Below, piece after piece: positions 11,801 to 57,602 of a stretch of DNA of 64,000 bases. A program made the translations under genes and the position numbers. Each line of letters starts with the position of its first letter. The first letter of the stretch is position 1. The DNA lies in the NCBI GenBank assembly GCA_032358255.1, contig JAULBX010030928.1, positions 62,001 through 126,000 of the forward strand. The letters run 5' to 3'. The notes beneath the pieces are model-generated. The model saw only the letters and a program-made list of their open reading frames with translations, searched no databases and had not been told where the DNA came from. The DNA is from Heterotrichella gracilis. Lineage: Eukaryota; Sar; Xanthophyceae; Tribonematales; Xanthonemataceae.

Positions 11801-13990
11801 TCTGAGTATTCCCAAATTTGAACATGCACACACGGTGCCACTCCCCCTAGTACCTCCACTCCTGTCCCCCCTACGTAGCACTCACGCACCATGGATGGCC
11901 CCGTGGTACAGGCTCCTGCCCCGACGCCCAGGATATGCTTGACGCACACAACTGGATGCGCTCCCGCCACGGCTCAGTCCCCCTGGCCTGGGACCCAGCC
12001 CTGGCGCAGCGTGCGCAGGCATACGCGCAGAAGATGGCGGACTCTACTGGCTGCACGTGAGTGGGGGTGGGGGTGGGTGGTGCTGCATGATGCCGAAAAC
12101 ATTGCGCTGCGCACCCCCTTGCCCATAAACCCTTACCCACCCCAGAAACCCCACATCACAAACCCTAGAACATATACCCTAAACCTTATTCCTCAACGAC
12201 CACAACAGACCTGAAACCCTAAATCTAACCCCTGCCACCTCTTCTGCAGCAACATCTGGCACGACGATGAGCGCGGCACCGATGGCGAAAACATTGCGCT
12301 GCGCACTCCCTTGCCCCCCGCCCAGACGCGCTGCATGACTGTCATGAGCGCCTTCTATGACGATGAGCTGGTGCAGTACCAGTTCACAAAGAGCCCCACC
12401 TGGGACAACGAGGCCAGTGCAGTGGGCCACTTCACGCAGATTGTGTGGAGGGCTACGCGGCGCATCGGCTGCGGCATGGCCACATGCGGGTGAGTGTGTG
12501 TGAGGGGGGCTGTATTGGTGGTTGAGATAGGCGTGGATGTATCACTGTTTTATGTAATGGGGAAACATTTTATATTTAAATACACAACTGCTTTTTTTAT
12601 GTTGAACGTTATCTCTAAGAATGGTGTATCACTTTCTGGTGGCAATATTTTCGCAGCAGTCCTTCCAGGGGCCTTCTACTTGGCCCCCGCCACCCGGCGT
12701 TGCAAGAGTCCTAATTCTTTGCAACAGCGCCCTTCCCTGCTCACCATAGGTGGTATGCCCCACTTGCAGGCAGAACCTGGGTGTGATCGTTGACTGCCGC
12801 TTTGGCAGCCAGGGCAACCAGTGGCGGGACGACTTCATATTGCAGAACGTGAAGCCACCCATCCCTGGGGGCATGGTGGCGCCCGCACCCCCGCCGCCCG
12901 TGCCTGCGCAGCGTCAGATTGCACCCTTTCCCACCGACAGCACCGGAGGTGAGTGGACCAGTGCCATGGCTGTGCTGGTGCCAGCTATGAGAAAACAAGT
13001 GGAAGGTTCAGGGAAAATAATCATCAAATGAAAAATACAAAAAAAGACAATACACAAGATTCCTCCATTTCATAGCAACTCTACATAAATGGCACGTGAC
13101 GCTCGTGGACGCGTTACACGCTATCCTCGCATGCAAGTATGAGCACTCCCTCCTTGTTAATTTTCACTCAACTTGAACCCTGCCCTCCCCACCCTTGCAG
13201 GCAACTGCGCCCTGGACGACAGCCGCTCCATGCTGGACAACATCAACGGCAAGCGGGCGGCACACGCCTCCCCTCCCCTGCAGTGGAACACCTCCCTTGC
13301 CACCATGGCCCAGCAGTGGGCCGACTACCTGGCACAGAACAGCTGCGGCAAGACTCAGATCCCCTCAGGCAATGCCAAGTGGCTCACCACACTGGCCACG
13401 GGGTACCAGTACGGGCCCCTGCACCTGTGCTCATTCGCGGCTGACTACTGGTGAGTCATGCCAAACCACTGGAGAGGGAAAAACACCAATTAAATTTTAC
13501 AATATATAGAGCAACTCCTACCTCTCCCTCCCCCCTTTATATATTCATAAGAAGTAAAATAAGAACTAGATCCTGGTGGTGTGTGGGTGGCCAGCATGGA
13601 TGGTTGGCGGGGAGAGGCTGGTCCTTGTTGCCGACGTATAGCTGTAGCTGTCACATGGCAAGTCTGCATCCTGACTGCATGCTGCTCTGGCCTGTTGGGT
13701 GCGAATAAAATCACCACATCCACCAATCAACCCCCCTTCCTCCCACCCCCAGGTACGGTCGCGGCGCCAACTACCGCTACACCTCCTCCCCTGCCGACGA
13801 TAACAACTTCAACCCCAACGCGCTGTTCACCTCCCTGGTGTGGGACTGGGCAACCGACTTTGGCTGCGGGGTGTCTGACTGCACCTCGGCCAGTGGCGCC
13901 CCCACCAACATGCTGGTGTGCCACGTGTGGCCCGTGACATCGTCCTGGAGCAACAGCCTGCTGCTGGGGAATGTGCACCCACCGCAGTAG
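8843..13990 (+). CDS. Secreted hydroxyproline-rich-type protein with two CAP (SCP/PR-1) domains
   Basis: Predicted extracellular matrix or secreted protein. Exons 8843-8872, 9251-9311, 9709-10005, 10355-10493, 10859-11130, 11313-11609, 11912-12056, 12250-12489, 12770-12948, 13201-13450 and 13753-13990 join in phase to 715 residues. A signal peptide (VCCLVLLVAMGCSGVAAQ) spans the exon 1-2 junction. Then come an acidic region with repeated VG(A/V)QWGQ-like motifs (30-175), a Lys/Pro-rich stalk of SPPPKKS type (176-266), a linker, CAP domain 1 (about 370-510), a Pro-rich hinge and CAP domain 2 (about 555-710). CAP 1 keeps LDAHNWMRSRHG, GENI, GHFTQIVW and the IGCG...C end. CAP 2 keeps the fold pattern (LQWNTSLATMAQQWADYL, DFGCGVSDC) but has LFTSLVW instead of HFTQIVW and no GEN, so its metal site is probably lost. 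Intron 7 holds a stray copy of exon 8 sequence. Confidence 0.88.
12089..12240 (+). repeat. Intronic copy of downstream exon segment plus telomere-like run
   Basis: The segment 12089-12123 (TGCCGAAAACATTGCGCTGC and onward) repeats exon positions 12281-12315 with a few changes. It is followed by CCCTAAA-like units up to the real acceptor at 12249. The copy is non-coding in its present place. Confidence 0.8.
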
Positions 13991-15575
13991 ACCTTGGCTA
14001 GGGTGAAGAGCAAGTGGTGTAAGACCCTAGCTCGGGTGTTGATGTGGACGGGGACCCCCTCATGAAGCAACAGCCCACCGCAGTATTCCCTGGCTAGGGT
14101 GTGCAGGAGGCGTGGTGGATCCTCGCTAGGGTTTGCAGCAGGTGCAGTAGACCCTAGTTAGGGTGTTGATGTGGCCAGCGCAGCGGGGAGCATGTTGATG
14201 GGTAGGTAGTATCTGCAGCAGCCGGGTTGCCACGAGGAAGCCTAGGAGAGGGGCATCCCTGGCGTGGTGAACCCACGTTGGAGGTCATGAATTTGGGTGC
14301 CATTAGACGGAATGCGTGGTGCACACCCTTCTTGCTGTGGGATCTGGATTCAAGCCAACGTACAGCAGGAAAGTTTTTTGTCAAATGTTGCAAGCCATGG
14401 CTTTGAAGGGTACGGGCATGCAGAATTGAATTGAACGCGCGCTGAACATAATCATGTTGTTTTGTGAGGCAGCCCCATATAACTATTGTGTTGCAAAGCA
14501 AATGAATTAGCACAATATTTTTCTGAATGTGTATGCCTTGCATGGATTCACTGGCAGTGACACTTGATAGTTTGGTGTTGTGAAAGCACTTAAGTTTCCC
14601 AAGAAAACGTATTATTAGATGTAGCTCTAGATTATAACTATGACGATGGCGGCTGGGAATGCCTTTTAATTTGTTTGTTAGTTTTGAACATAACTATGAG
14701 CCAGCGCTCTACAATAACTAGACTCAGTTCCAGTAGCCTGATTTGACGTAGACTAGCATATTAGCAAGAAGTTGTAACACCAGTAGCTCGTATCAGTCGT
14801 AGACCGGTGATCTTGTGTGCTGCTGGGGCGTGTGATGCGTGGTGATGTGAAATGCCATTGCCATGCCCATCGCATGCCACAGGCGGGCATGCACCGAAGG
14901 TGGGCTGGACAAAAAAAATCCCAGCTGTTCTGCTGGCATTGTGTCTCTCTGGACAGGAAGCTCCATACTTTCCAGTTCAAGATTCACCTTCTGAGAAACA
15001 AAGCCCGCCGGCCGCTCATAGGTGGACGGCGGGGGCCACCCATCACCACGACGCATCGCATTTCATTATTTTGCTTGAAGCAAACGTCGTTTACCACACT
15101 GTGTATCATATATGCCAAACGACCTGTACATCTGCAAATGGTGCCTGAGGTCCGACTAAGCCGTGCAGAGACTCCATACCTTATCTCGGTTTAGTTGTGC
15201 AAAACGCATGCATATAACCTTCACGTGTTTGCGTCACGCCTTGACCACAATTCCTGACCCGTAAAGCCGGCCATTGCCACTTTCCAAACTAGAAGCTACT
15301 TCTCGCTTCTTGCATGGCGTTCCCAACTCTTTTTCCAAGGTGTTGGTAGCGATGGATAGGTGTCGGAGTTTGGCTGTGGACGGGGGAACACGCAGTACAA
15401 TGCACTGAGCACAACAGCCATACACGAGGGAAGGCTCGCTTGGCAATGTTAAATCCTTGAAAAGCTGCGTTGTACTTACCAGCCATCCTTGATTGCCCTC
15501 TACCGATACCACACGACACCAAGAGGCAGGACAGCAGCACCTCTGTAGACTATTCCTTGGCAGGGTCTGTGCACG
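13991..15575. other. Intergenic with short degenerate repeats
   Basis: Between 13983 and 14165 a roughly 20-30 bp motif built on GTAGACCCTAGCTAGGGTG-like sequence recurs about five times at uneven spacing, starting at the CAP gene stop. A TGTAA at 14018-14022, 28 bp past the stop, is a candidate chlorophyte polyadenylation signal. The rest (14200-15575) shows no recognisable gene. Confidence 0.5.
14018..14022 (+). promoter_or_regulatory. Candidate TGTAA poly(A) signal
   Basis: TGTAA, the usual green-algal polyadenylation element, 28 bp after the CAP gene stop. The motif is short and occurs by chance, so this rests on position only. Confidence 0.35.
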
Positions 15576-18500
15576 ATGGAGGGCCGTGTGGCTGTGCTGG
15601 CGCTGTGCATGCTGCTGGCGGGCAGCGTCAACACCATTGCTACAAAGTACCAGGTAGGCAGCCACCCACTGCACCACCACCAACACCACCACCACCAGCC
15701 TAGTCGCCCTGCTGGTGCTTGGTGCTTACCCAGGCACTCACATTATCCAACGCTATTGATTCACCGCCTTGCTTCATCCTCGGAATGTCAGGGCTCCTGC
15801 TCTTACTGCCCAGTGCACAGTCCAGGGTTGTATCCTTGCCTCCATGCCATGGGTACATGCCTCAGTGTGCACAAAACAAAGCCAACCACCAGGCCCTGAG
15901 CCACTGCACTGATGCACCTCTGCACAGCGCATGTGTGGCGTGTCACCTGTGCTCCATTGTACCACTGTGGCTCTGCTGCCCCTCCCACAGGAGCCTCCGA
16001 TTGATCTACCCACGCCTCCACACCCCACACTACCCCCCCTCCCTTCACACACGCGCACACTCTACCACCAGCAATGCACCACCACCTGCACCAACCCCAC
16101 CAACACAATCCATATCCTCCGACCCTAATGCAAAAACCCACCATCCGCTGCTCCACTGCCCGTCAACCCACCCCCCACCCCCTGCAGGACATGGTTATTG
16201 TTGGCCAGACCTCCTCGGGGGACGCCATATATTTTCGCCACCCCGCATTCCAATCAGCAATAATGTTTGCTGGCGAGGCGTGCTGCCTGGTGGCGTACGG
16301 AATATACAGGTTGGTATAATGGAATGTGTCGAGTTGTTAGGGTTTTAGGGGATTGAAGAGGGGTTTCTGCACACCTTTTGTATGTGCATATAGGGCGAAT
16401 GCCGCTCTCTGCTTGTCTCCCGCGATGGGAAGCCGCTCCGCCTAGGAGCTGCCTTTGGTATATCTGTAAATGCAGCATGAATTTTATCACTGGTGTGCCA
16501 TGGTGGTGTGCAGGCTGGTGCGGCGGCGGCGGGCGGACGGTGGTGGCGGTGTGGAGGGTGGGGCTGCCGGCGCCAAGCCTCCCCGGCAGTGGAACATGAT
16601 CCTGGCTGTGTTTGCACTGCCCGCGCTGTGCGATGCCACCGGTACCACGTTGCTGAATGTGGGGCTGTTCTACACGTGAGTGGGGGTGGGGTGTTTGGGG
16701 TTGCTTTGCGCGTGCGTTGGAAGGGGAGGAATTATAATGAAGGTGGGGTTGGTCACCTCCTGAATGGAACGGGGTGGGGGGGCATGGGGATGTTTTGCAT
16801 GTGCATGTGCAGATGCATGGGGGGTGGGGGAGGGCGTGCGTGGTTGAATCCCACCCCTGGTCCCTCCGAGGGTGGTGTCATTGCATGCCACCGGGGCTGT
16901 CTACACGTGGGTGGGAGGGATGCTGGTGCTGATTTACATGTGCTGAAAGGGACGGGGTGCATGCGGCTGTTTGGTATGTGTGGTGGAGGTGGGTGGTGAT
17001 GGACATCGGGTTGTTTAGCACGTGTGTGAATGGCAGGGGCCGTGGCACGCCCAGCACTGTTTAGAGTTTAGGGTCTAGGGTTTATCTGTCAGGGTTTAGG
17101 GTGACACGCCTAGCATGGCATGGTGCAGGCTGTGATAGCAAACCAGCAACTGATAACTGGTTGGAGGCAGCATGTGTGTTCAACCTGGGTGTGCTTACTC
17201 AGACGCAAAGAGCGGGTCAGCACGTCCTGCTTGCTCATGAATGCTGCTCCCAACTGCCTATTTGAATGTTGGGCTTGCTGACTAAGCCTGACCTGGGCCA
17301 TGCCAGGCGCCCACCGCACCCTGCTCCTACGCCAGGGTTTATCCTACACCAAAACTTTAAACCTAACCCCATCCCAAGCCTGCGGCAACGCCAGCATTTT
17401 TCAGATGCTGCACAGCATCCTGCAGCTACGCTAGGGTGTACCCTCACCAATAATCCTGAAACCCTAAACTCACCCCCACCCCCGCCCTGCAGCTACGCCA
17501 GCACCTTCCAGATGCTGTGCGGCACCCTGCAGCTACCCTAGAATATACCCTACACAAACCCTAAAACTCTAAAACTCTGAACCCCACTTCCACGCTGCAG
17601 CTACGCCAGCACCTTCCAGATGCTGCGCGGCACCCTGCAGCTACCCTAGAATANNNNNNNNNNNNNNNNNNNNNNNNNNNNNNNNNNNNNNNNNNNNNNN
17701 NNNNNNNNNNNNNNNNNNNNNNNNNNNNNNNNNNNNNNNNNNNNNNNNNNNNNAAACCCTAAAACTCTAAAACCCTGAACCCCACTTCCACGCTGCAGCT
17801 ACGCCAGCACCTTCCAGATGCTGCGCGGCAATTTGCAGCTACCCTAGAATATACCCTACACAAACCCTAACACTCTAAAACCCTGAACCCCACTTCCACG
17901 CTGCAGCTACGCCAGCACCTTCCAGATGCTGCGCGGCACCCTGCAGCTACCCTAGAATATACCCTACACAAACCCTAAAACTCTAAAACCCTGAACCCCA
18001 CTTCCACGCTGCAGCTACGCCAGCACCTTCCAGATGCTGCGCGGCACCCTGGTGCTCTTTGCCGGCGCCCTGACCATCGTCATATTACACCGCCCCCTGC
18101 ACGCGCACCACTGGATGGGCATGGTGCTCATCTGCGCGGGGGCGGCCCTGGTGGGGGCCTCGTCCATACTTTATGACCCCGACTTGCTGCCGGATGACGG
18201 TTATGATGGCGGGGAAGGGGGGGCGGGCGCTCGCGGGGGCGTGGGCGGGCTGGTGGTGAGTGGCCGGGGGAGGAAGGGGTGTTTGGGGAAGGGGTATAGC
18301 ACTTATGGTCCGCAGCGGCTCATTTGTAGTGCTGCTGCTGCTGGTGTTGGCGGTTGTTTGGTGCGCACTGGTTGTGGGCAGCGCACGCGCCCACCTGTGA
18401 ATCATATTCCAGCATATGCAAAATAGCTTGCTATCACCTTCCCCAGGCCGTAATGAACCACAAACTGTAAACCTCAAACCCTAAAGCCAGCACCTTCCCC

Positions 18501-20526: not shown

Positions 20527-21251
20527 TGACAGTGGAATGGTGCCGCACTAGCCGGTTCGACACCCTAGGTGCACAGCGTGTCATCAAGAGAATGCATGGC
20601 ACATCTTGAAATATACTTTAGACCAGGCAATAATTTGTGCATACGGCATGCCGGTCACAGCATGGGTGCCACCATTGGCAATGCGGTAGCAGTGGCGCCC
20701 TGGCACTCGGTGGTTCGGGGGCAGGAGTTTAAGGAGCAGAAGGCGCTGTACACGTGTGAGCCGGGTAAACTTTGTGTCCTCGAGCGCCTTGCTACCAGCT
20801 ACCTTGCTACCCAGGTCTGGCATGGACCACATTGGCGCCAGCTGTGAAGTGGACATACTGGGATTCAGTGATTTATGCTTTGGATGTACCCCATGTACGG
20901 GTCAACAAGTTGTGTGTACCCGATAGAGACTCCTGGCCAATGTTAAAGGAGCATTGATAAGTCAATTTGGGAATATCAAACGATGGTATCGAACTTAAAA
21001 ATATTCTGCGCCAGGAGCAATGGTAGGGGAAAATACTGTTCGCAAACAAAACCTAGCTTGACTCGAGTAGTTACCGTGCACAATGTGCATGCAGCAAGAT
21101 GCATGCATGCATTGGTGGGCAAAAAAGCAGCTTCGAGACAGGCTAAGCATTTACGCGTTTCTTAAGAGAGCTTAACACCAGAGGACGATGAAATACCGCA
21201 GTATGTAAGACTAGTGAACTATTTTGTGCAGCACCAAAACATTAGAGCACG
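20527..21251. other. Intergenic, carrier to TPR gene
   Basis: Both flanking genes are on the plus strand. No exon, RNA gene or clear repeat was recognised. The TPR promoter should lie in the right part. Confidence 0.5.
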
Positions 21252-23052: not shown

Positions 23053-24363
23053 TCATTGGATTTGACACCAGAGCACGCCAACATTCCCAACGAATTCGTA
23101 GATCATTCTCGATCCAACGTAGAGTGATCTACCAGGATAGCCTCAAACTAGTGGGCCAAGGTGGCCACTTGGTTTCCATCAATGATCGTCATGTGCGCAC
23201 GATTGGAACCGTACTAGGTCAGTTGCTAGAAATATTGCACTGCCAGTGGCACACAGGACCCGCCCTGAAGCGCATGAGGGGTGATCGATGTCTTGCTTGA
23301 AAGCCTTGCAATATTGTATGACATATGTTGTATACATTATAAAGAATTTTACACGTGTACGCTGCGGCCATCATGGTAACGGTTAGGTTTACAATGCATG
23401 CCATGTATCAATTGATGATTGCGCACTGCCATATATTTTATTGGCGTTCACGATTAGCCTAAGCTGAGCCTAAGAAAGTAAATGCTACCGGTTACCGTAA
23501 TGCCATGGTGTCACAGTGATCAATTGATGTTATCGATAATCCACTGGCACGGTTATTTTGTTGGAATAATAAAGCCGCTCTGCGCATGCGGTGCAGCACA
23601 ATATTGTCATATCAAAATATGGCCATTACCTTGTGTGGCGCCGCAACACAATCTTTATGATCATGGTAGCACCTGTCAAACTGACAATCGCCATCATGAT
23701 ACATACATATTATGCACCCTAAAATCCCCACGTGGCACTGCCAGGCCACACACTGCCCACCGGCACTGAACTATCCCCAGGAGGCCTGGCAATGCCATGC
23801 CGTGCTCAGCAACATGCAGTACCGTCAGTAAGAAACAATCAAACAATTCTCTTCAAAGAAGGACTGCGGAGGACAGCAGCATACGACATAAATACATATA
23901 TAAATATTGGCACTGGCATGCCATGCGCATGGCATGCCAGCTGCTGCAATATCCCACCCTTCCTCCCAAAAACTACTCCAATTCAGTGGTCAGCCGTAGC
24001 GGCGCAAGCCCGCACCGTGCCTTCCCACCGCCTTCTTAGCCTTCCCCCTGCCGCCTTTGCCATTGCACCGGCCGCACCTCCTTCTGCACCCTTCCCTCCA
24101 CCCGAGCAAGGGAATTAAATAAAAGCACTTGTAAAAAACATCAAAAGATGCATTTCTTTGCATCCCTTGCCCCAATCTCCTCGTCCCCTGCAGTGGCCAC
24201 CAGCAGCGCCCATCCTCCTGTTGCGCCACGCCTTCCCCATGTGCACCCCCATCCTCATTTAGACCCAGGTTGGGAGGAGCCCCAGGGATGGCTATGGCGC
24301 CGCCGCCCTTGTCAAAATTGGCTGTTCCTATTCCCAACCATTACCCCTCCCTCCCACCCAAGC
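23053..24363. other. Intergenic between convergent genes
   Basis: AT-rich, no exon supported. Its right part (24176-24240) holds a diverged copy of the last coding exon end of the neighbouring minus-strand gene. A weaker third likeness may lie near 23995-24110. Confidence 0.5.
24176..24240 (-). repeat. Diverged copy of the final exon end of the fucosyltransferase-like gene
   Basis: Matches 24363-24425 over about 60 bp (CTCCTCGTCCCCTGCAGTGG against CTACTCGTCCTCTGCAGTGA, then a shared CCTCCTGTTGCGCCAC). It lies just past the stop codon of that gene. Confidence 0.7.
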
Positions 24364-27300
24364 CTACTCGTCCTCTGCAGTGACCAGCAGCAGCGCCAGC
24401 CTCCTGTTGCGCCACAGCCTGCGCCGCGCCTCCTCTCGCACCCGCCGCCTCCGCCGCCGCTTGGCTGGTCGCACCTCCACCTCCACCTCATTGGGGATCT
24501 CAGGCTTGGGCAGGCCCACCTGAAAAGGAAAAGATAAAAACTTTGATTTAAATAGCTACATGTACCCTGTTCTTGGGCATAGAATGCACATTCCAATATG
24601 AGTTTAGGGATTAGGATTTAGGGTCTATAAAAACGTACATTTGCATCAATGGCTAATAGTCATTAATTTCATCAATGGCTAATAGTCATTTATAAAGTGT
24701 AATATTACTCCTGTAAATACATGCTTCCTTGTGAAGGAAAGAAAAGGGTTGAGGCATGGCCCACCCACCTCCTCCCAGCGGTCCAGCGGCGTGATGGACT
24801 TCTTGAAGCTGTCGATGCAGTCGCGCATCTCCATGGCGCAGCGGTGGTGGCCCCACCACAGCGCCATGTCGCTGAAGCCAGAGGGCGAGCGCAGGAAGCA
24901 GGTGGCGCGCGCCATCAGCCCCAGCTCCACGAATGCCGGCCAGTGCAGCTGCAGCGCCCTGTCCTGGTTGTCGTCGTGCACGTAGTGTACGTGGTGCACG
25001 TGGAACTCGGTGGGGCCGGTCACGCCGTACAGGTACTTGTGGCCAGCCTGGTGGTGAGGTGAGGTGGAAAAAGGGTCAGAACATGGCGGTGAATATCTGA
25101 TGAGGAGTTGGGCGTCAGGGTGCCAACCTAAAGCAACTCGCCCCAGGCAAACTGTTCAACTCTAATGTATGAAATCGATACCCTCCCATAAAGATGTACA
25201 GATTTGGTCGGGGACGAACATGAATTGACAGCTGAGGTGTCGCTGTGTCATTGTACCCATGTGCCACCCGTACTCACCATGTATCTCACCATGTAGTTGT
25301 CAGCAATCATGAGCATGGGTGTGGACTCAACGTCCTCGCCCAGCTCGCCCCGAGTCATGTTGATGCCGCACTCCTGCAGGGGGGAAAGGGGGATGCAGGG
25401 TCAGGGGCGCACAAGAGTTGGCAAAAATAATGCCAATTGTTGGCATTATTCCCCATGTTTTGCAAAACATCAGTAGGCAATGTATTTTTATAGAATTCCC
25501 TTGTCCTTGGTAGGATGCGTGATACAGGACCCCATGGCTATGCAACCAGTCCACTATGTAGCGGATATGCCCCAATGATATTTGTGTGATGCCACTGACA
25601 CAGGTCCCCCTGTCTACTCCCATCCACATCCCCTCCCCACCCCCCCCCCCAATCCACCCAGCCACAGAACCATCCCCCCCCACCCCACCTGCGCGGCATC
25701 CTGCGCCCACAGCGTGCTCTCCGCCCCAAACCGCTCCTGCGCCCCGCTCTCCCCCACCAGCCTGCCCAGGCGCAGGTGCGCCGCCGTGTAGTGCGGTGTG
25801 AGCCCCCCGTACAGCTCCATCACAGCGTTGGCCACGTCCTCCTCCAGGCGGGGTGTGGGTTTGAACAGGTAGTGGAATATGCAGGCGATATCGGTGCTGT
25901 TCAGGGCGTTGCTGGCGGGGGGCAGGATGTCAACCTACACAATGACAACAAATATTTAAGATTTTCAATAATTCCATTGGAAGACATAAGAGCATATAAA
26001 GAGGAATAGGGATCATCTATTTACTCCCTTTATTGACAACATTTTGCTTTTAATCATTAATTATAACTTCTTACAGTAATATAGAAAATAAAATAGGGGC
26101 ATTGCTCATAAGTATTAATAGTGAGCATGATGCGATTAAAATGTCATGCTGGTGGCTGTACCTGGCTGTCTGCCCACTGGTTGGTTGTCTGTATGACCAG
26201 CTGGTTGGGCAGGTGCATCCAGGTGGACCCGTTCCGGAATGCCTCATCCAGGTCGTTCACGGCAAAGCTCATGTCGTGCTTGTCTGCCATCATGGCCTCA
26301 AGGTCCACAGGCTGGTGCGTGGCTGGGTCGCTGATGTTGTGCTTGCGCCAGTCGATGAGGTGGGGGGAGAAGGCAAGCTGCGGGGAGGGAGGTGATCATG
26401 CCCTTAGCGAGGGTTTTAGAACAGGAGGCAGTGCCGGTGGATCAATTGGTGGGGAGGATAGTGTGGGGGGTGAGAGTGGGCAAGGATTTCACTGCGGCAG
26501 GGGTGTGTGCACATGTAGATTGAGAGGTGGTGGGCATGAGCATTAGGAGTGCCGTGCACAGGGGTGGTCATGCGTGGATCACTCCCGCTCAGCAAATGTG
26601 GTGGCCAATGACCATCTGTACATTTTGCAGGATTGGCGCTCACCACGCGGTGTGGCTATAGCCCCCACCCCGAACGCTCACTCCCCCCCTTGCCCATCCT
26701 ACGCCCACCATACCCACCCGTTTCCCCGTGCATGGTCCACCCCCCCCCCCCCTCACCCACCTCCAGCTCGAATGGCTCCTTCCAGTCCACAAGGAACACG
26801 CGGCGGGAGGCAACCGCCACGCGGAATGAGAATATAAGGCCACGCATGCGGTCGCCTGCAGGCGCAAGGGGGACGCATGTGAGGAGGGCACAGGGCAGGG
26901 CAGCCTAGGGGAGGCACTGAGCGGAAAGCACGGGGGGCATGCACAGGGAGGCACAAGGGCGGTATGCGCAGGATCCCTCAAGGGTGGCAGGCAAAGAGGA
27001 GCACTGCAACCGCCGCAACCAGTACATCTACTCTACTTAAGACACGCCAACTGGTCAGAAGCATGGCCAAGGTGCACCTGCTACTAATCCACAGCTTGGG
27101 GTACACCACCCACACGCAAATCCTGTCGCCCCTGGGCCACCGCCTATCCCCGCCCCGTTTACTTGTTGCCCTCCCCACTGCGTGCGTGCGTGCCAACCCC
27201 TGTATTGAGCCTATTGCCTCACCCCAGCCGCCCGGGCGCCCTCCCCACTGCACATCCCTCACTATGTACTAAAAAACTTGCACCAAGCCACCACCCCAGC

Positions 27301-40753: not shown

Positions 40754-43700
40754 ATGGTGGTGCTTTTGCACCAGCTGTCCCTGGGAGACGCCTTCGAGGA
40801 CCTCATCGTGGAGGTGGTGTCGCTGGATGGGGTGGACACAGTCACGAAAGCCAACGACCCCGCATACTCCGCCACGGTCCGCGACAGCAGCGGCTACGCG
40901 CGGCTCATATACCGGAGCAGCATATACTGCCGTCCCAGCGCGGTCAAAAAGGGGAAGGTGTATGCGATTGGAGGTGCGCAGGGGCGTGGGTGGCATGCAT
41001 GCCTGGCGGCATATGCATGCATGCAAAAGATGCATAAATGCATGCAGGGCAGTTTGTGCAACACTGGCGGCCTAGTGTGACACTGTCGGGTTTACCCACA
41101 TCTGGGCGTATCATAACTCTTATATGAAGTATATACTGCATGCGCTCGTAGGCTAGCTGGTACCAGCATGCATGCAGTATAGCGCACCGTAACTCACCAC
41201 CCCCATGAGTAGCGAGTCATTTCCTGCCGCTTGGTCCCGTGCCCTGGCCGGGAGCCGGGGGACCAATACGGTGCATTCATGACGTGTCAGCCTCAGTGAG
41301 TACATTGTAGCACAAGGTTGGGTGCCTGGCCAGTGTGGGAAAGGTGCTTGCCTGTTGGGATGGGTGGTGCCTGGCAGCGGTGTTGGCGGTAGGCTAGTGC
41401 TGCTGATAGATACTATGTTTTAACTTTATCTCCCACCTGGTGCAGGCAAGGTGACCTCGCACAACGGCCAGGTCCAGATCCAGATAGGCAGCTCGTGGGG
41501 GAGGGTGGAGCGGGTCAACGGGGTGGAGGTGGGTGGGGGCGAGGGGGGCATGATGGCATGGCGGGGCTGGTGGGTTGCGCTTTCAGGGTTGTGGCCGTGC
41601 ATGCGGCAGCACTGATGATGTTCTGCTGCTGTTTTGGGCCAGCCTGTCGGTCAGGTCTTTGCAGCGGGCACAGCAGGCACACGTTCAGGATGCCATGCCT
41701 TGCACCCGGCAGGAGTTTGGAGTCACACGCTTCCATCACACTACGCACACACCCTTTGGCGGCGCTTGTGATGCATCAGCCACGTGCACAATGCCTCAGC
41801 GCCTGTAATGATCACCAGTCACCTCTCCCTTCCTATATTGCACCCCTCCCCCATTCCCGACCTCCATCCCATCGCCCCCTTGCCAGGTGCACTGCCCCCT
41901 CCCCTTCACCCCCGCCTCCGACCTGTCAGCCCCCTTGCGCCGATACGGGGCCATGCTCCTGGCCGACCTCCCCCAGGGGGGGGTGCACGCGTGGGTGGTG
42001 TCAGGGGAGGGCGCCCCGCTGGCAGTGGAGTACGCGTCCTACTTGGAGACGGGCAGGGCGGCTGCGGCAAGGTGGGTGGTGGGTGGTGGGTGGTGGTGGT
42101 GGCACGGGGTTCGTTTTCTGTGTTGGGCAGGGGGTTGGGTGGTGGATGAAGCGGATGGTGGGTGGCAGCTGACGGGTAAAGGTGGATTACACGTATGGGT
42201 GGGGCAAGGCTTGCACACCCGCAATTTCAGATTGGTGGGTGGTGGATTGTACGTATGGGTGGAAGGATACAGGAACACAACACCACATACCTACAGCTTC
42301 CCACCACCCCTTGTGCATGCTGCGCATGTGGTGCACTATATGTGTCATGTCCCTTGAGGTCTTGCTGTCTGATTTGGGTGCGTAAACCTGGTGATGGTGG
42401 TTTTATATGCAGGATTTTTCACACCGCACTGTTACAAAAATAGAAGATAAAGAATCCACACATTTTATTCAATAATCCTGTTACCGCTGTTTTTATTCAC
42501 GCTGCAATCCTGGCGTAGGGTTGTTCAAGCCAGCCTGGAGCTTCGCCCCGGCTGCTTCCAGCTGCTGCCCCTGCCACCCCTGGTGTACCTGGGCAGGGAG
42601 CGGGGGGCGCCCCTGGTGGCCACATGCTTTGTGGCGCTGCTGAGCGATCCCCGGGACAAGTTTGCTGTGGGGACTGACAAGGGCGGGTGGGTGCCGCTGG
42701 CGCAGGTGGCGGAAAAGGTAAAGGGTGGTTTGTGTTGAGGGAGGGTTCGGGGGTGAAGGGGTGTTATAGGGTGGATGGTGGGTGCTGCGGGAGGTTGCAG
42801 CAGTGGTCACGGCATTCAGCAACTCTGAAGAATGCGCATGCACTCTTACCGTACCTCAGCATGATGCCGATGAAGGAAAGGAAGTGAAAAGTATTGATTG
42901 CACTATGTCTTTTAGCTGCTTTATAACATACGTATTTTTAAAGCTTGCTTTAGTAATGCTGACACAAAAAGGCAAAACAAGTGGAGGCATAGGGAATCGA
43001 ACCCTAGACCTCTCGCATGCAAAGCGAGCGCTCTACCAACTGAGCTATACCCCCGCAGCATTAGCGTCGTGGGGATTTCCTGCTAACTATCATTGTTTTC
43101 GCACGGTGGGAACGCCACCGAACTCACGCCCATCTTGCAACGCGGCTGCTTCCGCTTTTACACCGTTAAGCCTCGAAACAAACTACTGGTATAGAGTACG
43201 ATCAGTTCCTTGTGTCGCCAGCCGTTTACTCCGCGGCGCAGCGCCTACTCCCGGTCGACATGCGCGGCATGCCACCGCCCGGGTCGTCATCGCCGCACGC
43301 CTGTCCTGCTAACTGACTCCCCCCTTCGTATGTCCCCACTAGGTCAGCGAGGTGTGGCGTCCCACTGTCGCCGCCATCTTCCACCAGCTGGCCACCGCCG
43401 CCAGCGCGGGGCTTGCCCCGCCGTGCTTCCACCAGCCACTCCCACAGCCCCAAGCACCACCCCCCAGCACCACCCCCCAGCCCCCACAGGCAGCCCCCAC
43501 GCCCCCGACCACCGCGCATCACGAGGACTCCTCACACCAAGCCGCCTTCGCAACCACCGCTGACGTCACCCAGCAAGATGGAGAAACACCATCCACGACC
43601 ACCACCTCCACCACCCCTCCCCGCGCCCCCCTGCCCGTCACCATCCTCAGCGGCTTCCTGGGCGCGGGCAAGACCAGCCTGCTGCAGCACATTCTGCGCA

Positions 43701-46700
43701 ACCGCCAGGGCCTGCGGTGCGGCGTGATTGTGAACGACATGGCCGAGCTCAACATCGACGCGGCGCTCATCAAGAACAGCAAGCTGGTGCAGGTGCGGTG
43801 CCGGCAGGAAAACCCTCAACCCTAGACTCGTAACTTGAGCTTCGAACCCTGAAACCCCAAGAAGGGTGAGCTGGTGCAGGTGTGGGAGCGGGAAGGGAAC
43901 TCCAAACCCTTGGTCAGGGTCTGCGGTGCGGTGTGGTCGTGAATGGCATGGCGGAGTGGCGGTGGCTTGTTACTAGGCGGCGGCTTAACATACCCCGCCA
44001 ATTATTGACTTGTGCTGTCTGCGCACATGCTGTAGACTTACCGGCACATGCATGCAAGGCACCATGGAGAATGATAGCATAGTGGGTGGTTGGGCTTGGT
44101 CACGCACCACATTCCCAGTTGACACCTTGGTTGACACCTCCCTCACACCTCCACGACGCGCCACCTTGCCCCCTGCTTCTCATTCCCCTGCTGTGCCCAC
44201 AGGCTGAGGAGCGTCTTGTGGAGATGCAGAACGGGTGCATCTGCTGCACGCTGCGCGATGATCTGGTGCAGGAGGTTGGGCGCCTGGCTGCTGAGGGTGC
44301 GGTGGACTACCTCGTCATTGAGTCAACGGGGGTCAGCGAGCCCATGCAGGTGGGGTTTTAAGTTCACGGTTCAGAGTGCAGGGTGCAGGTTTAGGATGGA
44401 GAGTGCGGTTGACGATTGTTTGGTGAACAGGCGTTGGCAAGGTAATGCAGTGAGTGGAGGGGTGGACGTCAGTGGCGGGGAAAGGTCTTGGGGATGTGTT
44501 AAGTGGGTTTGGCCTGTGGCGGCGTTGAACTAGGTGCATCGCCTTTGCCTCACGCTCCCCCTGCCCCTCCCCTTTTGCAGGTTGCTGAGACCTTCACCTT
44601 CATGGACCCCGCCACAGGCCAATCCTTGGGGACCGCAGCCCGCCTGGACACATGTGTGACGGTGGTGGATGCGGCCAGCCTGTGGGAGAACTTTGACAGC
44701 ATGGTGTCCCTGGCCGACAAGGGGGTGAAAACAGGGGAGAAGGTGGAGGAGGAGGATGACAGGAATGTGGTGGATTTGCTGCTGGACCAGATCGAGTTTG
44801 CGGATGTGATCCTGCTGAACAAGGTGGGTATGGTGAGGATGCAATAAGGGGGAATCTATTCCGTAGAACTTGGGGATATCTCAGGGGGATATCTTGCAGA
44901 TCTTATCGAGTTTGCAGTGTGATCCTGCTGAACAAGGTGGGTGTGATATGATGTGATCATGGGTGTGATTGGATGTGACATTGGGGTCTGATTGGGTGCG
45001 ATGAAGTGGTGGACCTGAATGCTGGACCAAATCAAGTTTGTGGGTTAGATAGTGCTGAACAAGGTGGGTGTGATCGGGTGTGGTCATGGGTGTGGTTGGT
45101 GCAATGATATGTTGGACCTGCTCCTTGACTAGATCATGGGTTGAACGTGATTATGATTAGTTTGCAAATGTGATCCTGCAACCAGGTGGGTGTGATAATG
45201 GATATATAACAGCGACAACAGATTAACATGCATGGGGATGTATGCGTACCTTATGGATGTCGTTGCAGACCTAATCCTGTTGAATGGTTGGTAGGACTGA
45301 ATTAGCTGTCCACAGGCGCCCTGTGTTCTGCCTAGTTTGGAGCTCCAGGGCAGTGCTTGTTGCTATCCCAATCAACTCTGGTGGTCGGACTGTTTGTTTT
45401 GGTATTTTTCATGGACCCACTTGCCGCTGCCTGTGTGTGGTTGCAAACCAGGTGCAGCAATTCGGCCTATGAGGTGGCAATGCCAACAGGCCCATCCCAA
45501 AAGTTGCTTAAGCCACGAATACTCGCTGCACTGGCGCTTGACGGTAGTAAACAGCAAGGGAGCCGGCGGGTCAGGAGGTGGGATTACATCCCACATGTGC
45601 TTCACGTGTAAGTATTTCTCACTGTTGTTTTTGTGCCTCTACCTCAGGTGGACCTGGTCCCCTCCCCAGACCTGGCCCGCATGACCGCCCTGCTGCGTCG
45701 CCTCAACCCCGACGCCCACCTGCTGCCCACCAACCACTCTCAGGTGGACCTCACCCAGGTGATCAACACAGGCAGGTTCAGCATGGAGAAGGCCAGGCAG
45801 GCGCCCGGCTGGCTCAAGGTGAGGGTTGTGGGATAGATTGGGGATGAGAGGATGTATGGGGTTACAGGGTGAAGGGTTTGTGATTCAGCATGGACAAGGC
45901 GAGGCAGGCTCAAGGAGGACCATACAGCAGGGGGAGGTCAACCTGAAGTGGACTGTGACCGCCAGTGTCAGCAATTGCATTTGCCAAGTGACATGGCATG
46001 TGTGCCGTGGAATGCATGCATCGCAACAATTGATCACACGTACTGGATGTGGTCTCCAGCACTTTCATCCCACCCAATGCCTTCTCCACCGTGCATGCCG
46101 CCCCACGTACCAACCACCTTCCCCACTGTGCTTTCCACAACAGCATGCTGCCATCCATAGCGCCACCATAGGCCACTGCTCACCTCGCCGTCCCACCCTA
46201 AACTCAAAAACCTAAACCTAAACTTTAAACTTCTCCCCAGGCGCTTCAGTCTGACACCCCCCTTGTGCCTGAGACCGAGGAGTATGGCATTGGATCCTTT
46301 GTGTGGCGTGCGCGCGCCCCCTTCCACCCTGCCCGCCTGCACGCGCTGCTGCACGCCACCTGGCGCACGCAGGAGCAGGACTGGGCGCAGGCAATGGAGG
46401 AGGAGGATGAGGGAGAAGGTACATGTTGTATATATATTTAGTTACCACAACAGAGAATGCATTCGTAGTCATATTAACGAGTTGCGAACAACAAGCAAGT
46501 GCATAAACATATAATAGAAATAAAGGTACTGCCATGTCCCAAACAAAATTCTAGCAAAAACGCACAAAACATACCATGCAAACAGTTGTTTTACAACAGT
46601 CTTTGTTGCTCCTGCAGGTGCATCCCAGGACGAAGGTGCTCCATCCCCGCAACAATCCCCATCCCCGGATACCCACGCCGCCATCCAGGCCGCAGCAGAC

Positions 46701-48064: not shown

Positions 48065-48083
48065 TCCAATGTGCCCACAGGCT

Positions 48084-48190: not shown

Positions 48191-48269
48191 ACACCCACCG
48201 TGTTTAACAACAGAACAACCCCTGTCTTCACTGTTAAGGGTTTAAGGGTGACAACCAGCGTGATTCACC

Positions 48270-51200
48270 ATGCCCTATGCAGGGTCAGATGGCGAGGAGG
48301 ATGGAGCGCCCCAGGTGGTCATTGTCATTCAGGAGGGAGCGGCGCAAATGCAGGAGGCGCTGGATGCCACAGGTTGCCGCCTGGGTGTGGTGAGCTGGCA
48401 TGCTGACTGGGTGGGGCCATGTCGCCAGGCGGAACAGCCACTCGCCAGGCTGGCGGCGCGCCACACCGATGTGGCACTGTTCCACCTGGACGTGGAGGGG
48501 TCGCAGGCAAACGAGGTGGGCATGGGGGTTAGGTTTTGGTCTGGTTTGATAGAAAGCAAGTAGCTGCATTCAAGCTATACACCAGAACGGCATAATGAGA
48601 AGCGCATAGCAATTCCTAGAATTTGTACATATCCTGCCTCCCTGCGCAGGCCTTTGCCTTTGAGAAGGTGGTCACCCGCCCCGAGGCCAAGAGGCAGGGG
48701 GCAAAACCCGTGCTGAAGGAGGGGAGGAAATTCCCCTGCTTCACCCTCCACTACCCCCCCTCCCTCCAACCAGCAGCCACCTTCACCGGACCCTCAGCTC
48801 TGGGGGATTTGGAGGAGGCCATCGCTGAAGGGGCGGAAAGCCCTGCCGAAAACCCTCCTGCTGGGGTTTCTGTGGCCAAGGGGGGTTCTGCAAGGGAGAA
48901 GAAGCAGGGGAAGAAGGCGGTGGGGCCGGTGGCTGCCCCCCCACCAGTGGAAGCAGAGGTACAGAAAATGCAGCTGACTGTTTTACCCAGGTTGTTGCGC
49001 GGGAAATGGTTTGAATCATGAAACATCTATACCTCACTTTGCTTCAATGAAGATTGCTTCAGCTGTGAATCATATGCCCATACACACCTACAAGATAGCT
49101 CTACTGTGTATACTCTGCAGTACAGGGATACACCCATGTGTTGGCAATGAGTTCAATCAGCAGCTGTCAAATGCACATGAGATGCCATCCAGTCCATCCA
49201 AGCACAGTATTGTCACGTTGGTCTTTTTTGCAATAATATTATATTTTAATTATATTCAGATATGTTCATGATTAAAATTGTCTTTATTTGGGGGTGCTGA
49301 AGCGCGGTGCTGCCAAGCTGCGGTGACTTCCTTTGACGCCTCAGAATATCCTCCTATTTTGAGCTTTCATCCAAGAATTATAAGTTTTTTTCTTTTCTTC
49401 CAGGTGCTGAAGCGCGGTGCTGCGGAGCTGCGCAAGCTTCTGTCCGACGCGCGCGACGTGGGTGCGCCGCTGCTTCTGTTTTGGCACCTGAGTCAGAAGA
49501 AGGGGTGGAACAAGGAGGCGATCAGGTGAGAGGGGTGGGAAAACAGGGTGCACAACTCGTGGGGGCAGTTATTATTGTTTTAGGATAAAACCTTCTTGGC
49601 AGTGCATCCCTGTGGGCATCGTTTTTGGTGAGTTTTCCTGCTATTCCATGGGGCATGCGTGTGACAAACCTTTGGTCGCAAGGCACTAGAGCCCACTCCT
49701 GGCAATCCGCCCAGTACAACCCCCCCTAGAACCCACCTGTGGCACAGCTTTTGAAGAAATTTCAAGTACCTAAGTAATTTCAGGTAAGTAATTTTAGGTA
49801 ATAGAGAGGCTTTAACTCCTACACTGAATAATCATATTGAAGTGAAAACAATGTATGAACAAATATCTTCACGTTTACACCCCTCCCCCCCACCTGCAGC
49901 GGCCTGGGTCGCCCCGCTGTGGACTCCGCCCTGCGCCAGGTGTCAGGTGTGCGGCTGGTTGATGCTGACGTGGCGGTGCTGGCCAATGAGAAGCTGGCGC
50001 TGGCGCTGGGGGTGCAGGAGTTCCCCGCATTCCAGCTGTATTTCGACATGAAGCTATACCGGTGAGGGGCCACGTTGGTTGCGCAGGGTGTGGAAAATAG
50101 GCCGTGTTCCCTGTTAGATCCTGTTCCCTCATTTTCCTTTCTTGTGAGGGGAGGTTGCGGGCAAATAAGCTGATGAGAGGGTAGTGCTGGTGGCGCGTTC
50201 CGCCTGGGTGTGCACTGTGCGGCTGCGGATTGCCGCCAGCACCTGTTGAAGTAAATTGCTAAAATCCTAAAACACTAAACCCTGGCCCTGGCCCCACCCA
50301 AGCCCAGATGGAGCAGTGGCTGGAGAAAGCCCTAAAATTTAAAACTCTGAAGCCCGAAAACCCTAAACTCTTGCCCTGCAGCTCTCTGGTCCGCCCCACC
50401 CAACCCCAGCTGGAGCAGTGGCTGGAGAAAACCCTAATGGATGCGGCGCCAAAGAGGGGCAAGGACCAGAAACCCCCACAGAAACCCCAGCAGCAGCAGC
50501 CAGTGGCAGAGCGCCAGGTGGCAGCTCAAGGATCAGAGGGCAGCGGAGTGGCCGAGCCACAGGCGCAGGCATCGAGTAGCGGCGGTGGTGCGGGCGACAA
50601 GGGGGTGGAGGTGAAAGATGAGGAGGTGGTTTGCAGCGAGTGGGACCCACCCACTGGCAAGTATGGCAAGGCGGGGGCGACGCGCAAGGTGGCTGGGAAG
50701 GTGGGTAATGTTAGGGTTTAGGGTTTGGGGTTAGGGTTTGGGACCCTCTCACTGGAAAGTACACAAACCTGGGACATCTCCCTGAGGGGAAAGAGTTGAG
50801 TGAGGGGTAGGGGGGTTCAGCCAGCCTGGTTACCCCCTCTCCATTGTTGCCGCATGGCATCTCCATCACTTTGCACACACGTCACATACACTCACAGTCT
50901 TGCGGTCGCATACGAGTACCACGCATGATAATATTGCCCGGATAATAGATCATCCCATCATGGGGCAACACTCGGGCGGGATATTCCTTCTGGTTTTACG
51001 TCACATACATCCACAGCCTGGGATTTGCATACTGATGCACGCCTCCCCTTGCTCCTGCTCCCACCCACCCTCCCACTCATCCACCTGCCACACCCGCAGG
51101 CCACCTTGACCTTCTGGCCCAAGATGCCCTGCCTGCGCTGCGGGTGCCCCTGGTGGACGGGGGATGGCTGGGACGCGCAGTGTGCGCGGTGCAGCTGGGA

Positions 51201-52753: not shown

Positions 52754-53936
52754 ATGAAGACCACAGCAGGTGAGTCAGACCCGCTCATGCCCACTTGCAC
52801 CCAGGTGCATCCAAACCATGCACAGCGAGCACACCCCACATGAGCTGCAAGTTTCCAGACCATCAACTTGTGAACCACACTGCCAGCACGCATGTGCTAG
52901 CACCTCGCTCCTGTACCTCGCCTGGGTTTCCGTCAAAGAACAGCAAAGGACAGAACAGAACAAGAGCACACTTCAGATCGTCCTAAGGGGTTCACACCAC
53001 CTGATGGAGGGATTCCACCAGCAACCACGCGACCCCCATGCACAAAACAACGCCCCCAGCTCATGCCCACACTTCACCCCAACACAATGACAGACCAATG
53101 TTGAAAAAGCCGCCCCAACTCCCCCCACGAACCCTCTCTCCTCCCCTGCAGCCTACTTGGGCGTCGCCTCCCTGCTGTACGTGTGGCTGACCATGCGGGT
53201 GGTGCGGCTGCGCATAAAGCTGCGCGTGCCGCTGGGTGATGGCACCTCAAACTGGCTGCTGGAGGTGGTAACAGCGGTGGCGGAGAGCGGCAAGGTTGCG
53301 CTGCAGGACAAAAGCGTGGGTGAGTGGGGTTGAGGGTTTCGGTGTGGTGGGGTCGTTGGGGTGGGGTGGCGGAGGGTGGCAAGGGGGCGCTGCAGGACAA
53401 GAGCGTGGGTGAGTGGCGGGGTTAGGCTTCAAGGGCTGGTGGTGCAGGACGTAACAAGGCAGATTGGCTGGCCCAAGCTGTGCAAAGAGTAATTGCTGAT
53501 CTGCAGTAGTGCATGTGATTGTCTGCTTACTGGCTCTCTTTTCACCACCACAACTAACCACCCTTGCGCTCATGTTCATCCCAACTCCTGCCTACACTGC
53601 TGGCACACGCAAGCATTGACCTCTCCCCACCTCCCTCCCGCAGTGCTGCTGTTCAAGAGCAAGTACTGGAAGCTCCTGTCCGCGGTGCGTGCCCACGCAA
53701 ACTTCATCGAGTTCTCCCCCCTGGTGTTCCTCACCATGGCCATGGCGGAGGTCAACGGCATGCAGAAATGGGCCCTACATGCCCTCCTGGGAACCTTTTT
53801 GCTGGGAAGGGTGGGGCACGTGCTATCATTGACCACAGCCAAGGTAGCAGTGGGGCCCGGGCGCACATTTGGCACGATTTCGGCAGTGGGGGTGTTGGTG
53901 CTGGCCAGTGTGTACAACATCTACGCGGCTGTGTGA
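52754..53936 (+). CDS. MAPEG-family membrane protein
   Basis: Predicted four-helix membrane protein of the MAPEG family (microsomal glutathione transferase-related, closest in pattern to bacterial YecN-type members). Exons 52754-52769, 53152-53319 and 53644-53936 give 158 residues. Helix 1: YLGVASLLYVWLTMRVVRLR. The loop carries the family LRVPLGDG. The core motif is RAHANFIEFSPLVFLTMAMAE (helix 2). Helices 3 and 4 follow, with LHALLGTFLLGRVGHVLSL and the C-terminal ISAVGVLVLASVYNIY. The family normally reads LGDGGN followed soon by AxRAHxNxxE; here about 37 residues (SNWLLEVVTAVAESGKVAL and more) intervene. The 16-nt first exon is short but in phase. Copies of exon 2 and exon 3 ends lie in intron 2 and just past the stop. 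Confidence 0.85.
53366..53416 (+). repeat. Copy of MAPEG exon 2 end with its donor
   Basis: GTGGCGGAGGGTGGCAAGGG through GCGTGGGTGAGTGG repeats 53276-53326 almost base for base, including the GTGAGT donor. The 40-bp spacer is G/T-rich (GGGTTTCGGTGTGG). Confidence 0.88.
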
Positions 53937-54941: not shown

Positions 54942-55375
54942 TCATTTATTTATTAGTAGGTTGAGCAAACACGCCTCACCTAGTGGCGCCACAGCCAGAC
55001 CCCCAGGGGTGTAGGTGATACCCCCTTGGCCCCCTTGCCAGTCGCCCGCAAACTGCTTCAGCCCCGCGCTGCACTCCGCACCGCACTGCCCAACCTGCTG
55101 CATAGGCACCTCAACGCACACCGCCACCGAGTCCCAGTTGACAAAGCTGTTGCGGTCGCTGCCCAGGCGCTGGTAGTAGGCCTGGGCATCAGCCAGGTAC
55201 TGGGGTTCTCCTGTCGCCACGTGGAGCCACATGGCAGCGTAGGCGAGCTTGTCAAGGTACCTGCGCATTACAGAGCCAGGGACACATATGTTCAGCCCAG
55301 ATCCATCATAAACTCATGAACATGCCTCGCACTTGTTGCAATCGCTGCTCATGGCATGCACTGATATACTACAGT

Positions 55376-55461
55376 AAGCCTGGGCACCAAACAGATACTG
55401 GCTTCTCCTGTTGCCACATGGAGTCACATGGAGGCGTAAGCAAGCTTGTCAAGGTACCTAC
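55376..55461 (-). repeat. Intronic copy of GH9 exon 11 start
   Basis: Parallels 55195-55262 over about 75 bp (GGCTTCTCCTGTTGCCACAT against GGGTTCTCCTGTCGCCACGT, ending AAGCTTGTCAAGGTACCT in both). On the minus strand it precedes the true acceptor. Confidence 0.85.
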
Positions 55462-57001: not shown

Positions 57002-57100
57002 TCACCTGGGGTCCCCTATCTGCCCCACGTACTGCTCCTCCCCCACCCTGAGGCAGAACCCTAAACCTGGTACAAACCCTAAATCCACAATCCTAATCCC
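57002..57100 (-). repeat. Intronic copy of GH9 exon 9 end with donor, plus telomere-like run
   Basis: CCCACGTACTGCTCCTCCCC at 57024 onward repeats 57121-57147, together with the ACCTGGG(T)CCC donor context. Between them lie AACCCTAAACCTGG and AACCCTAAATCC units. Confidence 0.85.
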
Positions 57101-57519
57101 TTACCTGGGTCCCATATCTGGCCCACGTACTGCTCCTCCCCCACCCTGCAGGCCATGAGGTAGTCAGCCGCCCAGCGCAGGTTGGCATCCGCACTCCCCT
57201 GCTGCCCCGCCCTGCTGTACCCCCCTGGGAACTCAGCCAGGCCCCATGCCAGGAACGATACAGTGATTGCCATGGGGAAGTTGAGCTTGAGGTGATCGCC
57301 GGCATCGTGCCAGCCTCCTGCAGAGCAACAGGGTGTTTGGTTATTGATAGGGGGTAAAGTATATCGGAGCACCGCACATGCAGAGAGTAAAAGCAGGAAA
57401 GGGCGCAGGTTGACACCAGCAGGCCAGGAAGGATCCGCGATGGGCATGTGCTGGTCAGCTTGACAGCAGCAAACCTGCAGCACTACTATGATGGGCGGTT
57501 GCTGCATGTTTAGGGTTGT

Positions 57520-57602
57520 AGGGTTTCACAGGAGCGACACAGCGATGGCCATGGGGAAGTTGATCAAGCTTGAGGTGGTCGCCAGCATCCATGCCAGCAG
57601 CC
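57520..57602 (-). repeat. Intronic copy of GH9 exon 9 start
   Basis: GCCATGGGGAAGTTGATCAA and flanks parallel 57253-57320, the start of the exon that encodes the DAGDH motif. The acceptor GCTGCAG-like context (CAGCAGCCTGCAATGG on the plus strand) is retained in altered form. Confidence 0.8.

Follow-up and report, generated by a model that had tools for sequence, protein, structure and literature searches.

Why do so many introns of this locus hold a second copy of the edge of a neighbouring exon? An earlier note on the window (the whole stretch of DNA shown, 64,000 nt) had pointed to such repeats in at least nine genes, and self-comparison of the window at lags of 20-599 bp recovered them where that note had placed them. 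Outside an array in the carrier gene, the repeats are ungapped segments of 21-57 bp with identities of 0.83-1.00 at lags of 65-279 bp. Pfam matches were found for 7 of 10 scanned predicted protein pieces (CAP, NUDIX, CIA30, cobW, MAPEG, GH9 and EamA), and at a threshold of 0.001 there was none for two thioredoxin-like pieces and a fucosyltransferase-like piece.

Copies of exon edges in neighbouring introns

On the forward strand, a segment inside exon 12250-12489 of the CAP gene (12281-12316; Pfam CAP) is repeated at 12089-12124 in the upstream intron (12057-12249), with C-rich telomere-type units in the spacer. The carrier (EamA) gene has an array at 17351-18051 (forward strand) whose unit of ~108 bp combines the start of exon 18015-18255 with telomere-like DNA; the array is interrupted by a 100-N gap at 17654-17753. 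The fucosyltransferase-like gene (reverse strand) has a copy of 24367-24397, in its last predicted exon, just beyond its 3' end at 24180-24210. In the CIA30 gene (forward strand; Pfam CIA30), the end of exon 36734-36885 with its donor (36851-36890) recurs in the intron at 36933-36972, and the joint between them (36891-36932) holds C-rich telomere-type units. The Nudix gene (39393-39532, reverse strand) shows the start of exon 39271-39405 with its acceptor at 39393 and further copies at 39458 and 39512, all separated by telomere-type tracts. Three places in the cobW (COG0523) gene, all on the forward strand, carry copies: exon segment 43706-43747 is repeated in the next intron at 43915-43956 (region 43706-43956); an exon end with donor, 44780-44829, is followed by three intronic copies from ~44905, 45006 and 45159 (region 44780-45195), the ungapped segments of the self-comparison starting at 44780, 44918 and 45020; and exon segment 45777-45802 has an intronic copy at 45884-45909 (region 45777-45909). 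The thioredoxin-like region (forward strand, no Pfam match) has an intronic copy at 49293-49322 of exon start 49403-49432 (region 49293-49432) and another at 50291-50335 of exon segment 50393-50437 (region 50291-50437), the latter pair with a telomere-type tract both in the spacer and outside the copies. In the MAPEG gene (53276-53416, forward strand; Pfam MAPEG), exon end and donor 53276-53327 are repeated at 53365-53416. Finally, the GH9 gene (reverse strand) carries an exon start with a copy at a distance of 197 bp (segments from 55206 and 55403; region 55206-55459), an exon end with donor at 57107-57148 with an intronic copy at 57009-57050 and G-rich telomere units (sense strand) in the spacer (region 57009-57148), and exon start 57250-57284 with an intronic copy at 57529-57563 (region 57250-57563).

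We analysed 314 kb in total, comprising the window and 250 kb of the same assembly (200 kb of contig C2 and a further 50 kb). The 50-kb sample was drawn from contigs in a TTTAGGG listing, partly adjoining the listed matches, and so risks sampling bias; the results held when C2 (200 kb) or the window was taken by itself. Genes were modelled with our own small hidden Markov model, trained on the window exons and then on itself, which sometimes labels a copy as an exon (e.g., 55428-55457) and fuses adjacent genes; little of the modelled set (30.6 kb) is intergenic. Exons were compared with their own introns for the 372 of 469 introns of at most 1,500 bp whose flanking exons both reached at least 30 bp.

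The idea that exons match their own introns no more often than random ones did not hold. At a score of at least 20, 42 of 744 pairings of an exon with its own flanking intron matched, compared with 1 of 3,720 pairings with length-matched introns elsewhere and 0 of 744 pairings with the own intron reverse-complemented. Of the earlier interpretation, a recurrent local process with telomere-type filler is supported, one that is strictly local and works gene by gene. About one intron in 10 holds a nearby copy of its own exon edge (38/372 overall, 11/83 in the window alone and 23/233 in contig C2). Across all 121 local pairs, exon-related or not, that passed the looser version of a filter for low sequence complexity, median identity was 0.92 (5-95% range 0.81-1.00); because the copies differ in sequence, they are unlikely to be an assembly artefact.

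The copies stand in direct orientation, mostly ~93 or ~198 bp apart. A lag mixture with two components, at 93 and 198, fitted better than one (BIC 475.1 vs 484.4); three components gave 461.0, with one of them a single point. With arrays included, local repeat pairs numbered 76 at lags of 30-400 bp, 3 at 400-770, 7 at 2000-2370 and 0 at 5000-5370. With overlapping pairs merged to single events, and the carrier array and a second array (L021:8115-8330) left out of these event counts and of the lag fit, 44 events were exon-intron, 27 intron-intron and 12 exon-exon. Since local duplication is also seen within introns and within exons, the slippage at splice-site motifs that the earlier note had suggested need not be invoked. 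The focus on exon edges may in part reflect a filter, in that exons would tolerate few duplications inside them, and copies derived from conserved exons may stay recognisable for longer than intron-intron pairs.

Most copies that span a splice site appear to preserve the predicted site: the 10th percentile of scores of real sites is exceeded by 13 of 14 copied donors and 13 of 22 copied acceptors. Copy-bearing introns have a median length of 403 bp, compared with 292 bp for the others, although longer introns also give more room for matches. Copying may lengthen introns and leave spare splice sites behind.

Telomere-type units between the copies

The earlier note had also linked the copies to TTTAGGG-like spacers. 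That link stands as an excess above chance, also in a spacer motif count that left out the carrier array, but does not extend to every case. Of the sequence between copies, 9.2% consists of TTTAGGG-type heptamers, compared with 3.1% of similar stretches beyond them. A pure base-composition effect was rejected, as 19 motif families of the same composition reached at most 1.4% of spacer DNA and at most 11 of 73 spacers. These 73 events were collected at a score cut-off of 16 and include some same-intron pairs and some likely mislabelled exons. Telomere units occur in the spacer in 33 of them and beyond the outermost copy in 15; the tract is inner only in 22 and outer only in 4 (sign test, p 0.0005), in both places in 11 and in neither in 36. 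Taken as a population, the events show an excess of the telomere-type tract at the joint over the flanks. Its content did not differ between lag classes, with a tract in 11 of 29 events at lags under 130 and in 6 of 15 others (p 1.0).

In 20 of 51 cases the exon-interior edge of the copy has a telomere heptamer within 40 bp, compared with 7.3% of random intron pieces, and in 13 of those 20 the heptamer is within 6 bp. Masking of these heptamers ahead of the alignment may favour copy edges that end at a tract. We counted own-exon similarity at or above the 99th percentile of the null, each group against its own null. Where a tract lay within 70 bp of the donor, 26 of 62 introns showed such similarity, compared with 37 of 260 where none did (p 4e-6); on the acceptor side the figures were 17 of 41 and 27 of 281 (p 1.5e-6). 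A tract near a splice site thus goes with a roughly three- to fourfold higher share of own-exon similarity (odds ratios 4.4 and 6.7), and at a fixed score of 18 the shares with and without a tract were 0.226 vs 0.077 and 0.268 vs 0.068.

The 33 spacers gave 35 orientation counts, in 29 of which TTTAGGG is directed away from the exon: the donor side has 15 G-rich and 6 C-rich counts, and the acceptor side 14 C-rich and 0 G-rich. A requirement for a pyrimidine-rich tract can account for the bias on the acceptor side. Genome-wide, TTTAGGG follows CAGGTGNGT within 30 bp 390 times and at 100-130 bp 169 times, and CCCTAAA follows it within 30 bp 149 times.

Seven extra loci (L034-L040), chosen because paired matches were visible, showed varied arrangements. 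Tracts lie between the copies with none in the visible outer flank in L036 and L039 and also outside the copies in L037 and L038; L040 has one isolated unit of opposite orientation outside the copies, and the visible flank of L034 and L035 is too short to place the tract relative to the copies. Judged by eye, the bases at the break site may be in register with the telomere repeat in L036 and L040.

A probable repair process and its alternatives

What the data show directly is that the copies are local and in direct orientation, that they fall into two distance classes and that telomere units are in excess between them. The probable cause is break repair that has repeatedly made small tandem duplications, adding telomere-type filler at many of the joints. 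A strictly local repair process would duplicate ~20-100 bp spanning or adjoining an exon-intron junction, in direct orientation. It would start from overhangs left close to the junction by a staggered break or by paired nicks; filling in both ends would copy the overhang. Either ahead of the joining step or in the course of it, one 3' end, as a rule that on the exon side, would acquire TTTAGGG repeats, added by telomerase or taken from captured telomeric DNA. Most exon-internal events would then be cleared by selection; those at exon edges would survive because the splice site nearer the exon remains functional and splicing removes the additional copy with the intron. Arrays could form by repetition of the process or by unequal exchange on its product. 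Filler is not general: 36 of the 73 events lack the heptamer and another 11 carry it inside as well as outside, so that many can be explained by plain duplication. A search with one region found no empty ancestral site or second allele in the genome itself, returning just the window and a weak nearby intron repeat. A more specific version, which we regard as doubtful, is that telomerase heals exon-border breaks in active genes by acting on the exon-side 3' end and that the healed end is rejoined to its own filled-in copy, steadily lengthening introns and seeding spare splice sites genome-wide.

The chief alternative, possible but clearly less probable than repair with filler, is that slippage, or fill-in at staggered nicks, made plain small tandem duplications in introns that already carried telomere-like tracts near their splice sites; the tract would then be part of the unit or would provoke breaks or fork stalling, and the joint would receive no filler. 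Consistent with this, 53 of 121 pairs are contiguous or have at least 80% of the spacer accounted for, the tract lies both inside and outside in those 11 events as it does in L037 and L038, DNA outside one copy matches the spacer at 57009, and in arrays such as L030:7855 the tract recurs together with the exon edge. However, an excess of inner-only over outer-only tracts is not expected if the tract is merely part of a plainly duplicated unit. Plain duplication also explains less of the unit in telomere-positive exon-intron events (median 0.67, 5 of 17 nearly complete) than in telomere-negative ones (median 0.88, 16 of 27), and the tract often adjoins the exon-interior breakpoint. It is improbable that tracts are instead retained for splicing, as pyrimidine tract, branch site or G-runs, and simply carried along by duplications. 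Even in introns with no detected copy, C-rich units occur near acceptors and G-rich units are somewhat commoner than C-rich near donors, and genome-wide the 30 bp before TGCAGG hold 1,984 CCCTAAA vs 1,326 TTTAGGG. A splicing role leaves unexplained, though, why a tract predicts an exon copy, and downstream of donors, too, units are C-rich in 6 of 21 counts.

Birth of introns by tandem duplication of an AGGT-bearing exon piece, with the copies as two birth scars, is very improbable. Such a boundary-crossing duplication made an intron in potato, as the available text of PMC4974935 describes, and one intron here (L012:4371-4630) matches in register at 13.5. Yet among 322 introns, in-register donor and acceptor contexts numbered 3 at a score of at least 9 (2.9 expected), 3 at 10 or more (1.0 expected), 1 at 12 or more (0.1 expected) and 0 at 14 or more, far too few for 38 copy-bearing introns, and in most window events the intron reaches beyond the copy. 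AGGT-type creation as a general cause was thus not supported. An introner-type mobile element would suit the many introns affected but has next to no probability, as exon edges match their own introns and hardly ever others. Within the 314 kb, with the two arrays left out, just 38 of the 469 introns have a match to another intron at 1e-5, and the largest such group counts 17, in agreement with the earlier view that this is not one transposon family; no sequence was common to the introns of many genes, and introners were not supported.

Comparison with known systems

Intron lengthening and the origin of spare splice sites are otherwise mostly inferred from rare single cases. Here a single genome, with about one affected intron in 10, offers products of many ages, as the identity range of all local pairs indicates, which makes it possible to date and count the process and to test it by comparing strains. 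Simple scaling of the 73 events in 314 kb gives ~16,000 events in 68.5 Mb, a rough figure that uses the lower score of 16. Telomere biology would also be tied to break repair inside genes.

Introners, in the accessible part of PMC9860276, likewise affect many introns at once but differ in having a shared element, for which no sequence was found in the 314 kb. The potato RdRp case, as far as PMC4974935 is available, shares duplication across an intron-exon boundary; the copies here lie mostly within existing introns. Closer are the interstitial telomeric repeats at double-strand breaks of primates, rodents and horse. According to the available portion of PMC7215372, telomere repeats are inserted at breaks there, so that telomere-type DNA lies at a repair joint, and the flank is sometimes directly duplicated at staggered breaks (3 of 66 horse loci, with 2 more within complex changes). 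Duplication alone is rare in that system, whereas here it is the main feature and is found at exon edges, and the tract here is degenerate, unlike those repeats. Fill-in of complementary break overhangs by CST-Pol alpha-primase gives small tandem duplications that are direct and adjacent, as are those found here, and according to PMC8355091, in its accessible text, natural insertions in humans and plants hint at a break-repair model. The same text describes no telomere filler, which is present here, and compared with what it reports the distance classes of ~93 and ~198 bp are a feature of this genome. The component processes are thus known, and their combination at exon edges looks new.

Exon-edge copies in the introns

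The copies are real and local. Lag-by-lag self-comparison of the window recovered the repeats of the earlier note where that note had placed them, and its gene names were borne out by Pfam domains in 7 of 10 predicted window protein pieces, each as the name predicts. For chance tests, 250 kb from the same 68.5-Mb assembly (903 contigs, the window being on contig 835) were added to the window. Genes were found with a codon model and a small Markov model, both trained in this analysis; the final Markov models for the combined 314 kb hold 534 exons and 471 introns (469 used in tests), with a predicted median intron of 303 bp and predicted splice consensus of about CAG/GTGNG at donors and TGCAG/G at acceptors. 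We then aligned each exon locally with its own two introns. At a score of at least 20, there were 42 matches in 744 pairs versus 1 in 3,720 with length-matched introns elsewhere, the comparison that the earlier note had proposed, and the reverse-complement control gave 0 of 744. Copies lay in 38 of 372 introns; the upstream and the downstream exon each accounted for 21 of the matches. Contig C2 of the added set (200 kb used; 23 of 233 introns) and a 50-kb sample, taken partly beside listed TTTAGGG matches (4 of 56), gave copies as well as the window (11 of 83), so the result is independent of the window. Direct repeat pairs, arrays included, numbered 76 at lags of 30-400 bp, 3 at 400-770, 7 at 2000-2370 and 0 at 5000-5370.

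Dropping two arrays and merging overlapping pairs left 83 independent events (44 exon-intron, 27 intron-intron and 12 exon-exon). Exon-intron lags across the 314 kb form two classes, at ~93 and ~198 bp: two components fitted better than one (BIC 475 versus 484), and 4 lags fell within 130-180 bp versus 10.7 predicted by a lognormal (p = 0.009). Lags of exon-exon pairs were divisible by three in 8 of 15 cases overall (5 expected), some of them in the further loci L009, L012, L023 and L032.

The reading frame is carried on by the exon-proximal splice site, with the copy inside the intron. Most site-spanning copies retain good sites (donors in 13 of 14, acceptors in 13 of 22), so that, judged by sequence, spare candidate sites exist. 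Copy-bearing introns are longer than others; longer introns offer more room for a match, and their length is thus no proof of growth.

Several other features were seen. An exon-edge array with a 108-bp unit at 17351-18051 holds a 100-N gap (17654-17753), so its assembled copy number need not be the true one; at 5361-5723 a tandem repeat with a 137-bp unit, its copies 98% alike, comes straight after a further 100-N gap. A weaker repeat (71%) pairs 58166-58308 with 57390-57525 within one predicted GH9 intron. A tRNA gene on the reverse strand (42982-43054) is flanked by two predicted opposite-strand exons and apparently sits either within an intron or in the gap between neighbouring genes whose models were fused. 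Among the introns of the 314 kb, 17 form a connected group by shared sequence, probably an ordinary dispersed repeat. The intron at L012:4371-4630 is the sole one with in-register similarity between its donor and acceptor surroundings (score 13.5) and may have been born by duplication.

Telomere-type units at splice sites

Telomere-type heptamers (TTTAGGG, G-rich, or CCCTAAA, C-rich) cover 1.83% of introns, 0.41% of exons and 0.65% of 30.6 kb of intergenic DNA, and families of the same composition cover 0.59% of introns on average (maximum 0.91%). The earlier note's report of such units in the spacers held: 29 of 61 spacers, some overlapping, contain a heptamer versus 9.8 (sd 2.7) expected, and coverage in spacers of exon-involving repeats is 9.1% versus 1.9% in equal-length random intron pieces. 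The units cluster within ~50 bp of donors and acceptors alike, and they do so even where an intron has no detected copy. C-rich and G-rich units make up 4.5% and 6.1% of the first 30 bp past the donor, 4.8% and 0.3% of the last 30 bp ahead of the acceptor, and mostly 1-3% deeper in introns.

Introns with a tract within 70 bp of the edge more often reached or passed the null's 99th percentile for similarity to their own exon than those without, both on the donor side (26 of 62 versus 37 of 260) and on the acceptor side (17 of 41 versus 27 of 281); the tract thus predicts the copy. Raised similarity persists at scores below 18, as would be expected of decaying relics.

Filler or passenger

The tract might simply be one part of a plainly duplicated unit, in which case it should be equally frequent between the copies (inner) and beyond the outermost copy (outer). 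The counts are unequal: tracts were inner in 33 of 73 events and outer in 15. Eleven events had them in both places and 36 in neither, which leaves 22 inner-only and 4 outer-only events. Inner-only exceeded outer-only cases in C2 (11 versus 2), the window (7 versus 1) and the 50-kb sample (4 versus 1), and 19 same-composition families, averaging 0.65% inner and 0.66% outer, had no inner excess. Plain duplicated units account less fully for telomere-positive than for negative events, and the tract often adjoins the copy's exon-interior breakpoint. Under break repair with filler, telomere-type repeats would extend the exon-side 3' end, and 29 of 35 orientation counts agree with this. At acceptors, however, the same bias would arise if selection favoured a C-rich tract.

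Seven extra loci, chosen non-randomly from pattern listings for paired matches, gave a mixed outcome. Tracts lay between the copies in L036 and L039, with none in the visible outer flank (36 and 78 bp); in L040 the tracts between the copies are G-rich and a single isolated C-rich unit lies outside, and L037 and L038 had tract outside as well. L034, where an exon edge and its donor occur eleven times with telomere DNA in between (8 of 10 steps being 96 bp), and L035 have visible flanks too short to judge outer tract.

Relation to known repair outcomes

The phenomenon is real and strong, beyond what the earlier note could show. Its best reading is a local repair of breaks in which exon-intron borders are duplicated and telomere-type filler is often added. 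A literature search, mostly of titles and abstract openings and largely of open-access papers, gave no paper joining telomere filler with exon-edge duplication among the matches listed, which is weak evidence of absence. Insertion of telomere repeats at breaks is known in mammals, and in the horse 3 of 66 loci show flank duplication alone (PMC7215372); staggered ends, once filled in, yield small tandem duplications (PMC8355091); and one potato intron was made by a boundary-crossing duplication (PMC4974935). The process described here looks like a variant of these known outcomes that is itself new.
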